Assembly: GCA_021798575.1 (NCBI GenBank)
Contig: JAJZGI010000003.1
Coordinates: forward strand, 1 to 64,000
Direction: 5' to 3'
Source: Pseudomonadota bacterium
GTDB taxonomy: Bacteria > Pseudomonadota > Alphaproteobacteria > Acetobacterales > Acetobacteraceae
DNA: 64,000 bases
Below, one piece after another: positions 8,519 through 31,152 of the stretch. The notes beneath the pieces were generated by a model, which saw nothing but the letters and a program-made list of their open reading frames with translations, was not told the DNA's origin and ran no database searches. Numbering within the stretch: the stretch's first letter is position 1; each line of letters starts with the position of its first letter. A program made the translations under genes and the position numbers.

Positions 8519-9124
8519 ATGTCCGGCCTCACCATCTCTCAGCGCCTCACCCGCATCGTGGCAAACCTCGCGCAGAGCCTCAACATCTTTGCCCTGCGCG
8601 TCAAAATGCCGGTCTCATTGTGCCAGATACTCTCGCGCCGCTTAACGCGCCTGATGGACCGCCTGCGAACCCTCATCGAGCGCGGGCCGCTCCCACCCCG
8701 CCCGGCGCGCGCCACACCCCGCACGCCGCCCACCAACCCGCCAAAACAGAGTACGGATGAACTCCATCCGCCCAGCAATTTCGGCTGGCTCGCTTTCATG
8801 TTCCCCGGCTCCGATATCAGCGCCATGCGCAGCCATCTGCTCATTTTGCTGGATGAGCCCGAGACCCAATCCCTCATCACCGGCCACCCCATGCTCGCCC
8901 GCAGCATCCGCCCGCTGTGCCACATGCTGGGCATCAAGCCGCCACCCTGCCTCAAGCTACCCTCAAGGCCGCGCATAAAACGCGCGCCAACATTCACCCT
9001 CACGCCACCCCCCAAAAAACCCGCCCGGAACATCTGGCGCCCAACCCCACCCAGAGTGATGACGCCCGCCGAGGCCCAACTCGCCGCCCGGCAATTCTTC
9101 AACCCCCGCGATTTTTACAACTAA
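8519..9124 (+). CDS. Hypothetical protein, Pro/Arg-rich
   Basis: ORF with internal ATG 8519 (MSGLTISQRLTRIVANLAQSLNIFALRVK...AARQFFNPRDFYN); no family recognised. Confidence 0.55.
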   Translation: MSGLTISQRLTRIVANLAQSLNIFALRVKMPVSLCQILSRRLTRLMDRLRTLIERGPLPPRPARATPRTPPTNPPKQSTDELHPPSNFGWLAFMFPGSDISAMRSHLLILLDEPETQSLITGHPMLARSIRPLCHMLGIKPPPCLKLPSRPRIKRAPTFTLTPPPKKPARNIWRPTPPRVMTPAEAQLAARQFFNPRDFYN

Positions 9125-9212
9125 ACGCGGCGGCGTTTACGCACGCTTAAATTATTACGATAACATAACGATTTAGGCTCGATTCACCCCAACCGAATCA
9201 ACCCATCACTTT

Positions 9213-9731
9213 TCAGCGATCGGCTTTCACCCCCGCCTGCGCGCGGCCCATAAACTGCAACGTCGTCGGGCCGATATGCTCGTCAATCCATTTCGCCATC
9301 ATCTCTTCTTCCTTCAGGGACTCTCTTGCCGCCGCCAGGCCCTGCGGGTGGCTCAGCGCCTCCGCCATGGTGATGATCGATTTATACGCCGCCATCTCAA
9401 AATGCTCGAAAGCAAAATTCGCCAGCGTATTCTTCAATACTTCATCGCCCGCGGGCGTATGGGCCATCGCCGCCAAATTTCCCGCCAGGCCGAGCGCGGC
9501 GTCCTTCATCGAGGAATGCGTCTCGGAAAGGCTGGCGAGCGCCTCGTCGATCCGGGTGCGCTGCGTCTCGGACTCCGTGATGTGCTTGCGCATCCGCGCC
9601 TCCATCTCGGGGTGGTTCTGCAGCCGGTCCACCTGGCGGGAGAGCAGCTCAATCGCCTGCGTCTACATGGCGTGCGCATTGCGCAGGCCGGTGACATAGA
9701 TGCCGCGCGCCTTGTTCTCCATCTCGTTCAT
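9213..9731 (-). pseudogene. DUF892 (YciE/YciF-type) ferritin-like protein gene interrupted by TAG at 9663-9665
   Basis: MNEMENKARGIYVTGLRNAHAM-TAG-TQAIELLSRQVDRLQNHPEMEARMRKHITESETQ; both halves lie in one frame. Confidence 0.75.
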
Positions 9732-9747
9732 GGCAATTTGCTCCTTG

Positions 9748-10248
9748 CTAGCGCGCCGGCATGGGTGTGAGGGACTCGGCGACCTTCGTGAGTTTGGCAT
9801 CCGTCGCCTTCTCCTCGGCCAGGGTCGCCTCCAGCGGCCGGATGGCCTCATGGTGCCCAAGCTGCCGGGCGAGCGCGATGAGCGTGCCGTAGCGGCTGAT
9901 CTCATAATGCTCCACGGCCTGCGCGGCGGCGGCCATCGCCGCATCCATCACCTGCGCGTCGCCGATCTCGCCCATGAGCTCCTTCGCCTCGGTGATGATT
10001 CCCTCAATGGCCGGGCATTCCTCGCCTTTGGCCTTTACGCCCAGTTTCTCGAAGATGCCCTCAAGGCGCACGATCTGCTCCTTGGTCTCCTCAAGATGCG
10101 TCTCGAACCCCTCGCGCAGCGCCGGGTTGCTGGCCTTTTTCGCCATGGCGGGAAGCGCCTTGGTGATCTCGTGCTCGGCAAAATAGATGTCCTGCAGGGT
10201 GTGCAGGAACAGATCGTCCATCGTCTTGATCGGTTTGCTCGTAGCCAT
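9748..10248 (-). CDS. DUF892 / YciE-YciF-like ferritin-like protein
   Basis: MDDLFLHTLQDIYFAEHEITKALPAMAKKASNPALREGFETHLEETKEQI; hallmark of the family. Confidence 0.9.
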   Translation of the reverse strand: MATSKPIKTMDDLFLHTLQDIYFAEHEITKALPAMAKKASNPALREGFETHLEETKEQIVRLEGIFEKLGVKAKGEECPAIEGIITEAKELMGEIGDAQVMDAAMAAAAQAVEHYEISRYGTLIALARQLGHHEAIRPLEATLAEEKATDAKLTKVAESLTPMPAR

Positions 10249-27649: not shown

Positions 27650-28894
27650 ATGCCTGAGACGCTTTCCGCCGCACCGCTCGATCTGTCCGTGTTTGATAAT
27701 CTGGAGCCGCCACCGGCGCCCGCCCAGGCGCTGACGGCCCAGCCTGCGTCCGCAATAACGATGAGCGACGAACGGCTTGCGGAGCAGCCCAGGCCGGAGC
27801 GGCTGGTGGAGGTCTCGAACCTGCCGCCCGCCGATCTGGCCTCGGCCCAGGCGTCGGCCGAAAAAATCAACTTCTCGGATACCGCCTCGATGCTGGCGCA
27901 TGGCGAGGGTGTTTTGGCGGCGATCGCGGGTGCGTCCCGCCAGTTGCTCACCGGTGTGCGGCTGGGTGACGCAGGTGAGGCCGGGCAGATCGCCGCCTCG
28001 GTGATCGATGGTATCAAAATCCTGCGGATAAAAGACCTTCAGACCGAGGCCAACGGCGGCCAGCCCGCCGTGCGCAAGGGTATCATCGGCCGGATGCTGG
28101 GCGTCGCGGCGGACGCGCGCACCGCCTTCAAGGGCTTTGCCGAGAATCGCGAGCAGTTCCTGACCCTGATGGACAAGGAACAGGCCAAGGCGCGCAAGAT
28201 CAAAGCCGATCTGGCGGTCACCATCGGGCTTTTGGACCAGCAGGCGCTGGCCATCCGCCAGAGCCTGCACGAGCTGAAGATCGCCATCGCCGCCGGGCAG
28301 ATCGCGCTGGACCGCGCGCAGGACGAGTTGGAGACCAAACGCCAGCACGCGATCGCAACCGGCGACGCGGGGGACGCCGCCGACGTATTGGATTTCCGGG
28401 GTGCCATCGCCAATTTCAGGGCTAAAATCGCGGATATGCGGGAGGCCATGGTCGGCTCAGCCATGTTGATCCCCATCATCGGCCAGAATCGTTCAGCCGC
28501 CGAGACCCGGATGATGAAAATCTCCAACGGCATGCTGGTCGTGATCCCGCGCCTGATGGCGGTGGCGAGCCAGGCGGTCGTCCAGGTGGAGATCAAAAAC
28601 GCGGCCGAGGCCTCGGCCAAGCTCGATGAGGCCAACCGGCAGATCACGCTGCTGGCGGCCAAAGGTGCGCATGAGGCGGCGACCTCGGCGGCGCGCTCGC
28701 TGGGCGGGGATACACGCAATATCGACGTGCTGGCGCAGGCCGCGGACGAGGCGATCGCGACCATGAACGAGGTGATCGACATCGAGCGCGAGGTGGCGGC
28801 GGGTGACGCCGCGCGGGAGGCCAAGCTGGCCGAGGTGCGCAGCAAACTCGTGCGCGGGATGCAAGGTGTGAATGCCAGAGCAATCGAGAAATAG
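27650..28894 (+). CDS. TelA/KlaA-family (toxic anion resistance) protein
   Basis: Coiled-coil architecture with IGQNRSAAETRMMKISNGMLVVIPRLMAVASQAVVQVEI resembling TelA. Confidence 0.75.
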   Translation: MPETLSAAPLDLSVFDNLEPPPAPAQALTAQPASAITMSDERLAEQPRPERLVEVSNLPPADLASAQASAEKINFSDTASMLAHGEGVLAAIAGASRQLLTGVRLGDAGEAGQIAASVIDGIKILRIKDLQTEANGGQPAVRKGIIGRMLGVAADARTAFKGFAENREQFLTLMDKEQAKARKIKADLAVTIGLLDQQALAIRQSLHELKIAIAAGQIALDRAQDELETKRQHAIATGDAGDAADVLDFRGAIANFRAKIADMREAMVGSAMLIPIIGQNRSAAETRMMKISNGMLVVIPRLMAVASQAVVQVEIKNAAEASAKLDEANRQITLLAAKGAHEAATSAARSLGGDTRNIDVLAQAADEAIATMNEVIDIEREVAAGDAAREAKLAEVRSKLVRGMQGVNARAIEK

Positions 28895-28920
28895 AGAATT
28901 TTCGGGCGGGAGCCGGTTTG

Positions 28921-29292
28921 ATGGATTTTGATATGCAGGCGGCGTGGCTGCGGCGATTCTCTGGTGATGCGCAGAGCAATCTCGGCGCCTTTGCGTTGCG
29001 GTTGAAGGAGGCGCTGCCCGAACTCGTGCGGGTGCAGGAGCAAAAAAGCCTGTTCGTGAAATCCGGTAAAATCACCGGCGTTACCGTGGAGCTCGGCCAG
29101 AATTTTTACCGGCTGGAGATGATAAATGGACGGCTGTCCGCCAGCATCGGCATGGTCGTGCGCGGCATTACGCTGAACACGAAGACGCTCGACCCCGCCG
29201 AGTGGTTCGCGCGCCTGGCGCAGGAGACGCAGGAGGCCTCCGCCCACGCGCAGGGCCTCAGCCAGTCCCTCCAGCAGTTCATGGCAAGCTGA
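28921..29292 (+). CDS. Hypothetical protein in the TelA-YbjQ cassette
   Basis: ORF tightly spaced between telA-like and YbjQ-like genes; no family recognised. Confidence 0.7.
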   Translation: MDFDMQAAWLRRFSGDAQSNLGAFALRLKEALPELVRVQEQKSLFVKSGKITGVTVELGQNFYRLEMINGRLSASIGMVVRGITLNTKTLDPAEWFARLAQETQEASAHAQGLSQSLQQFMAS

Positions 29293-30224
29293 TGGGTTTG
29301 TTCGACCTCTTCAAAAAACCGACCGCCGAGAGCCAGGCCGCCCAGGCGGAATCCGCGCGTCGGCAGGCTGATATCCAGATGAGCCTGCGCGGCGGGCGCG
29401 TGCCGAGCGGCACGCTGGCGCGCCTCCAAGGTGCCGCCGCTGGCGCCGGCCCGTGGATGGCGACCCTCTCCCCGGCGGAGCTGATGATCGTGCGCTCGCA
29501 TGGCCTCAAACCCATCGCCGCCATTTCATCCACCTGCTGGCTGCATTATGGCTGGTCCTGGACGCAAGGCCACGCGCAGGGCTGGGAGACAGCCCTGCAG
29601 CGCCTCAGCCAGGAGGCCAGGGCCTGCGGCGCCAATGCGGTGCTGGACGTGAAGATGCGCACCATCCCCGTGGGCGAGGGTGAGAGCATGGATTTCTCGC
29701 TCGTCGGTACGGCGGTGCGGGTGGAAGGTCTGGCGGCATCGCCAGACCCGATCATCGCCACCGTGCCGGCGCTGGAATTCGTGAAACTGCTGGAGGCGGA
29801 TGTGGTGCCGACCGGCATCGCCATCGGCGCGCATTATGAATGGCTGACTGACTGGCGGGGCAGCGCGGATGCGCCCTGGATGGGCAACACGGAATCCTGG
29901 CAGCTCTCGAATTTATGGGAGAGCGTGCGCAGCCGCGCCCATGCGCAACTGCGCGAGAGCGCGCGCAACCATGGCAACGGCGTGCTGGCGCATCTGAACT
30001 TCTCCCAGATGTTCGAGCGCGAGCGCGATATCAACGAGCAGAAGGTGAAAGAATATCTGGCCCGCCATATCGTCATCGCCACCACGGTGGATGCCAAACG
30101 CGGCACGCCGCTGCCGCAGGAGTTCAAAATGATGGTGGATATGCACGCGGGCAAAACACCGCTCACCGGCACCTCCCGCCACCACCAATCCTACGCCACC
30201 AACGAACAGGACGGAGCGATATGA
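29292..30224 (+). CDS. Protein with two YbjQ/UPF0145-like domains
   Basis: SSTCWLHYGWSWTQ...ARACGANAVLDVKM...FSLVGTAVRV and a second degenerate copy. Confidence 0.65.
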   Translation: MGLFDLFKKPTAESQAAQAESARRQADIQMSLRGGRVPSGTLARLQGAAAGAGPWMATLSPAELMIVRSHGLKPIAAISSTCWLHYGWSWTQGHAQGWETALQRLSQEARACGANAVLDVKMRTIPVGEGESMDFSLVGTAVRVEGLAASPDPIIATVPALEFVKLLEADVVPTGIAIGAHYEWLTDWRGSADAPWMGNTESWQLSNLWESVRSRAHAQLRESARNHGNGVLAHLNFSQMFERERDINEQKVKEYLARHIVIATTVDAKRGTPLPQEFKMMVDMHAGKTPLTGTSRHHQSYATNEQDGAI

Positions 30225-30225
30225 C

Positions 30226-31041
30226 ATGACGCTAGATTTGCCAACGCACGCGCAGGAACGCCTGAAGGGGTTGCGCTCCTCGGCGCATTCCTCCGGCGTG
30301 TTCACCTCGGATTTTTCCGTCAATGAGTTCTTGCTGGTGCGCAAGGCCGGGTTCGAGCCGATCGGCCTGTGTGTCGGCACCTGCGTCTATCATGTGGGGA
30401 TCCAATACGGCTCCTGGTCGAAAAACCAGGAGATGGATGTGCTCTCCAAGGCGATGTATCATGCGCGCGAGCTGGCGATGTCGCGGATGCGGGCCGAGGC
30501 CACCGCCATGGGCGCGGACGGCATCGTGGGGGTGAAGCTCACTATCAAGCGCCTGGAATGGGATGAGCATTTGCTGGAATTCATCGCCATCGGCACCGGT
30601 GTGGTCCACGGGGAGGGTCATAAGGGCTTCCGCGCGCATGACGGCGGGCCATTCACCTCGGATCTGTCCGGGCAGGATTTCTGGTCCCTGCTGCACGCGG
30701 GCTACCGGCCGGTAGAGATGGTGATGGGCAGCTGCGTCTATCACGTCGCGCATCGCGGGATGCTCTCGGGCCTGGGCACGACAGGGCGAAACGTCGAGAT
30801 GGAGAATTTCACCGCCGCGATGTATGAGGCACGTGAGATCGCCGTCGAGCGCATGCAGGTCGAGGCCGCGGCGGCGAAGGCCGAGGGCGTGGTAGGCGTG
30901 GATATCCACGAGGGCAGCCACGGCTGGCAGACCCATGTGATCGAGTTCTTCGCCATCGGCACGGCGGTGCTGCCGCTCGAGCAGGAGATCGCACCGGAGA
31001 AGATTGCCGACCCGATCATGGTACTCTCCGTCAATGATTAA
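30226..31041 (+). CDS. Protein with two tandem YbjQ/UPF0145-like (putative heavy-metal-binding) domains
   Basis: Two copies: CVGTCVYHVG...ARELAMSRMRAEATAMGADGIVGVKL...FIAIGTGV and VMGSCVYHVA...AREIAVERMQVEAAAAKAEGVVGVDI...FFAIGTAV. Confidence 0.75.
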   Translation: MTLDLPTHAQERLKGLRSSAHSSGVFTSDFSVNEFLLVRKAGFEPIGLCVGTCVYHVGIQYGSWSKNQEMDVLSKAMYHARELAMSRMRAEATAMGADGIVGVKLTIKRLEWDEHLLEFIAIGTGVVHGEGHKGFRAHDGGPFTSDLSGQDFWSLLHAGYRPVEMVMGSCVYHVAHRGMLSGLGTTGRNVEMENFTAAMYEAREIAVERMQVEAAAAKAEGVVGVDIHEGSHGWQTHVIEFFAIGTAVLPLEQEIAPEKIADPIMVLSVND

Positions 31042-31100: not shown

Positions 31101-31152
31101 TTATACTCAAAGTGAGTATAACAGGGGTAAATTATACTCACTTTGAGTATAA
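31101..31152. promoter_or_regulatory. Two perfect palindromic operators upstream of nadA
   Basis: TTATACTCAAAGTGAGTATAA (31101-31121) and its exact reverse complement TTATACTCACTTTGAGTATAA (31132-31152), just before the SD of nadA. Confidence 0.85.

Follow-up and report, generated by a model that had tools for sequence, protein, structure and literature searches.

PspA belongs to the ESCRT-III superfamily and remodels membranes (PMC8281802). In known operons PspA is accompanied by a small CesT/Tir-like partner and sometimes by a glutathionylspermidine-synthase-like ligase (PMC11237479). The YjfI-YjfJ/BacA-BacB operons, which combine a DUF2170 protein with PspA (PMC11237479, PMC10948618), belong to this group, and their larger versions may include the ligase gene. 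YbjQ/UPF0145 proteins have been described structurally as single-domain proteins (PDB 1vr4, 1y2i, 2gtc); five chains are present per PDB entry, which fits a pentamer. YbjQ proteins and the TelA/KlaA proteins (PF05816) are both widespread families with no settled function. We analyzed a locus in which members of these families are encoded together and compared it with the systems listed above.

The window, i.e. the whole 64,000-nucleotide stretch of DNA analyzed, contains at positions 27650-31041 four contiguous, near-overlapping ORFs, all on the + strand. The first (27650-28894, +) codes for a 414-aa TelA-family coiled-coil protein (PF05816, E=1.3e-20). It is followed by a gene for a small protein of an unnamed family, P2 (28918-29292, +), and by genes for two proteins with tandem YbjQ domains, P3 (310 aa; 29292-30224, +) and P4 (271 aa; 30226-31041, +). 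The first base of P3 is the final base of the P2 stop codon (29292), and a 1-nt gap separates the end of P3 (30224) from the start of P4 (30226). The TTG start codon of P2 at 28918 directly precedes an ATG at 28921, and a length of 123 aa is therefore as likely as 124 aa. Inspection of the + strand between the four genes revealed no terminator-like site, and no conserved promoter was seen upstream of TelA in a comparison of 15 relatives. The assembly of the source genome comprises 2.37 Mb in 95 contigs and is 96% complete. An earlier note, made from the letters of this DNA, had described four co-directional, tightly packed genes, of which those starting at 29292 and 30226 overlapped or lay within 2 nt of the preceding end, and had assigned to them a TelA-type protein, an unrecognised small protein and four YbjQ-like domains over two proteins. 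All parts of this description were borne out, the domain count by Pfam and profile comparison together.

Pfam searches with the YbjQ profile (PF01906, curated cut-off 23 bits) identified one domain in P3, in its N-terminal part (35.7 bits, E=1.4e-8), and two stretches in P4 (72.7 bits, E=4.3e-20). In a profile-profile comparison the C-terminal half of P3 matched the C-terminal domain of P4 with 98.6% probability (7e-16) and is thus YbjQ-like, so that the count of four YbjQ domains in P3 and P4 is right. By sequence, then, P3 and P4 are paralogous double-YbjQ proteins. They differ from the single-domain YbjQ/UPF0145 proteins in having two such domains each, in being encoded together as two paralogues, and in the extra conserved CxxH and H residues of P4. 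Given the five chains of the single-domain structures, a heteromeric YbjQ assembly of P3 and P4 is plausible by analogy. In several proteobacteria (loci L180-L183) two adjoining single-domain YbjQ genes coding for proteins of about 110 and 150 aa were observed; such pairs are possibly a precursor of the tandem proteins.

The second YbjQ domain of P4 contains three residues, C170, H173 and H237, that are invariant in 86 P4 proteins from several phyla (with one gap at H237). In the first domain H56 is present in 82 of the 86, and the Cys residues are not conserved. The C170/H173/H237 set may form a metal or catalytic site, and a metal role for the module is possible on this pattern. These residues bear on a reading of the locus as a metal or oxyanion tolerance system, where the YbjQ proteins would bind metal through C-x-x-H...H, TelA would confer tellurite or metal resistance, and PspA, found in other copies (see below), would limit secondary membrane damage. 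The Pfam labels of the two families, 'putative heavy-metal-binding' for YbjQ and 'toxic anion resistance' for TelA, agree with it, as does the invariance of the second-domain residues; the lack of conserved Cys in the first domain of P4 does not. Judging by their names, many carriers are presumably acidophiles or come from acidic, metal-rich sites (Acidocella, Acidiphilium, Alicyclobacillus, Dyella, bog MAGs), which would also fit; the carriers considered (loci L076-L155) were those most similar to a protein of Acidocella.

Searches of P2 against Pfam, NCBIfam and PADLOC gave no family assignment. Its AlphaFold model, of fair quality (pLDDT 80.6), has two helices, five strands and two further helices in that order, and no significant fold match to it was found in the PDB. 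A relationship of P2 to DUF2170/YjfI (CesT/Tir) was considered and rejected at the level of sequence, since 11 members gave no Pfam match and hhalign returned 3.2%. P2 homologues are conserved across several phyla, and by these sequence criteria P2 represents a new protein family, likely an adaptor.

The TelA of the window matches PF05816 over the full length of the profile (positions 3-326 of 332; 74.2 bits against a curated cut-off of 30), and the same profile was matched by 22 of 22 sampled TelAs. Its AlphaFold model is all-helical with long helices (pLDDT 69); comparison with the PDB produced helical-bundle matches, none of them significant (Vipp1 ranked 36th), and no significant membrane-remodelling fold. 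Though a member of the TelA/KlaA family by sequence, it carries at residues 9-13 an N-terminal PLDLS motif that has no counterpart in the other TelAs compared: a motif of this type is carried by 35 of the 37 module TelAs, against 0 of 16 others. Module TelAs of distant genera are ~40% identical to each other, compared with about 21-26% identity to the other TelAs of the order, and thus set themselves apart as a subfamily of their own. A 'PLD' motif common to TelA and the PspA C terminus was also considered and discarded, being missing from half of the PspAs.

Of 150 genomes from this order, an identical set of 11, that of the window included, carries homologues of P3 and of P4, always side by side. 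All ten relatives carrying P3/P4 also carry P2, and in nine of them TelA adjoins P3/P4; two other genera have P2-P3-P4-TelA in place of TelA-P2-P3-P4. In the tenth relative (G149, locus L075) the genes are arranged P4, PspA, P2, P3, with a PspA/IM30 protein (PF04012, 1.1e-23) in the place of TelA. G149 and G068, a carrier of the TelA form, belong to the same genus. Among the sister genera, the module TelA of L033 is followed by a glutathionylspermidine-synthase-family gene (8550-10049; PF03738, 3.8e-106), and what is by eye the same PF03738-type gene lies beside the module in L032 (8414-9685). The module resembles the YjfI-YjfJ/BacA-BacB operons in this ligase-type neighbour and in the small alpha/beta protein that adjoins PspA. 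It differs from them in that P2 is not recognisably related to DUF2170 in sequence, in that two tandem-YbjQ proteins are a constant part, and in that TelA can replace PspA.

When 84,980 species genomes were searched with an alignment of P4, 491 related stretches emerged, of which the best 80 were retrieved with up to 10 kb per side. Alpha-, Beta- and Gammaproteobacteria, Planctomycetota, Bacillota and Cyanobacteriota are represented among these 80; a single record labelled Bacteroidetes belongs to a bog MAG that may be mis-binned. For 51 of the best 80 loci, many of them close relatives and hence not independent, the flank on either side reached 3.2 kb or more. P3 is present in 50 and P2 in 48 of these 51; TelA is the only partner in 26 and PspA in 20, both never occur together, and neither is found in 5. 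The orders in this set are TelA-P2-P3-P4 (26), P2-P3-P4-PspA (16) and P4-PspA-P2-P3 (4), and the module genes are all on the same strand, most junctions overlapping or spanning a few bases. Gene order is permuted while the set is retained, with at least four orders across several phyla. For 22 representative loci, drawn from several phyla, all flanking ORFs within 10 kb of P4 were clustered, and the widely shared families were P3/P4 (22 loci), P2 (21), PspA (10) and TelA (9). No other widely conserved neighbour was found within that distance, the remaining recurrent clusters being antisense or frame shadows of module genes or sporadic families present in 3-4 loci. That unrelated genes became neighbours here by chance is hardly credible, since the same set recurs over several phyla, in at least four orders and with no other widely conserved neighbour. 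The earlier note had proposed a functional linkage of the four genes, to be checked by a gene-neighbourhood survey and to be given up if the families did not co-occur and the genes were transcribed independently; the families do co-occur, and the linkage is well supported by the co-occurrence within the order and by the conserved neighbours in the 22 loci.

Several copies, in Sphingomonas, in two Caulobacterales and on two Streptomyces plasmids, have neither TelA nor PspA nearby; the plasmid order is P3-P4-P2. In all six chromosomes searched whose module copy lacks a nearby partner, PspA is encoded elsewhere. The Sphingomonas copies are reduced to P3-P4 and are adjoined by a convergent membrane protein (L132, 10817-11719; L126, 3317-4135; L124, 11148-11861; all on the - strand). 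One of these proteins matched Rv2743c, the mycobacterial PspM, below the threshold (E=0.0067). A common local replacement gene in the copies with neither partner was sought and rejected, this match beside the Sphingomonas copies being the only one.

The distribution of the module is patchy: a phylum-level sample of 299 genomes contained one full-length P4 beyond that of the window, and the other matches were mostly ordinary single-domain YbjQ proteins. The closest P4 relatives of the window are from Acidocella (96% identity), and P4 proteins of Rhodanobacteraceae (92% and 89%), Bradyrhizobium (89-90%) and Legionella (83%) fall inside the same Acidocella-type clade. P4 proteins ~90% identical in unrelated bacteria show horizontal spread, and there is very little doubt that the four genes form a genuine module that has been passed on horizontally. 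Patchiness and transfer are also what would be expected of an anti-phage defence system, in which a mobile core would sense infection and the coiled-coil protein, fittingly for a membrane-acting partner, would act on the membrane. Such a role appears quite improbable: no PADLOC model matched better than E=0.025, no defence gene is conserved as a neighbour in the 22 representative loci, the proteins have no nuclease or nucleotide-signal domain, and a search for phage copies of the module found none.

The module PspAs, too, are distinct from standalone PspA. With module PspAs from Planctomycetota, Alicyclobacillus and Dyella the G149 protein shares 40-46% identity, and with the standalone PspA encoded in the same genome 26%. 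Less alike are five divergent module PspAs of Bacillota, at about 22-26% identity to the G149 copy. PF04012 was matched by 21 of 21 sampled PspAs. By sequence comparison, module TelA and module PspA are both dedicated subfamilies, and by genome context they fill the same slot; a shared slot does not imply the same activity. No PspA gene was seen in the 96%-complete assembly of the window's genome. Acidiphilium has both a TelA form and a PspA form, in separate P4 clades. On the unrooted P4 tree, the presence of TelA requires at least two changes; several independent TelA/PspA swaps were considered and not retained, as two changes are all that the tree needs.

The occurrence of TelA or PspA, never both, at one locus suggests that TelA has a PspA-like, membrane-protecting job, and the interchangeability of the two points to membrane or envelope protection over the metal and tellurite emphasis. 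We consider with moderate confidence, by analogy to the Psp system, that the module provides envelope protection with an interchangeable coiled-coil membrane component. Complex formation, action at the membrane and the stress sensed are what we infer here. The core would consist of the two paralogous tandem-YbjQ proteins and the small P2, and would work with a dedicated coiled-coil protein, PspA/IM30 in some lineages and TelA in others, including the window. The YbjQ domains of P3 and P4 would form a ring-like scaffold able to retain the coiled-coil protein or let it go, and P2 would serve as adaptor or chaperone. The trigger would be stress on the membrane (low pH, toxic ions or membrane-active peptides), upon which the coiled-coil protein would be set free, or would assemble at the inner membrane, and would seal or stabilise it. 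The window operon differs from the Psp system in containing TelA and no PspA/IM30, while related copies have PspA in 20 of the 51 flanked loci (from the best 80 of 491). More tentatively, TelA could be a second, non-homologous membrane protector that substitutes for PspA, the tandem-YbjQ proteins and P2 being a platform common to both.

Some observations weigh against envelope protection. Remote homology of TelA and PspA was examined and rejected, with hhalign at 0.5% and no detectable relationship, and the TelA model resembles no membrane-remodelling fold significantly. P2 has no detectable sequence relationship to DUF2170, the known Psp partner, and some module copies have neither coiled-coil protein nearby. 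Metal tolerance is the main rival and is compatible with envelope protection. As an account of the module we regard it as rather unlikely, because the conserved neighbours in the 22 representative loci include neither a transporter nor a metal enzyme or metal regulator and because TelA is replaced by PspA, which is not a metal protein. Thus, of the stress/metal module suggested in the earlier note, the stress part is upheld by the conservation of the module, and the emphasis on metal and tellurite is weakened by the exchange of TelA for PspA.

The pairing of YbjQ proteins with TelA or PspA is probably new. In the literature searched, with subscription journals mostly outside, a module that joins YbjQ to TelA or to PspA had not been described; no paper named YbjQ and TelA together, and only a persister-cell proteomics paper named YbjQ and PspA together. 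The main text of PMC11237479 mentions neither YbjQ nor TelA. If TelA does substitute for PspA on a common platform, a role for YbjQ, TelA and P2 would be obtained at once. The presence of two widespread families in one mobile module makes membrane protection a testable hypothesis for both, and P2 gives the Psp field a new family. The exchange of partners in an otherwise constant module amounts to a natural complementation experiment.

Downstream of the module, just upstream of nadA, the palindrome TATACTCANNNTGAGTATA is present in two perfect copies (window positions 31102-31120 and 31133-31151), with none expected by chance. The pair lies outside the module and probably serves as operator for the nadA-nadB-nadC operon located after it.
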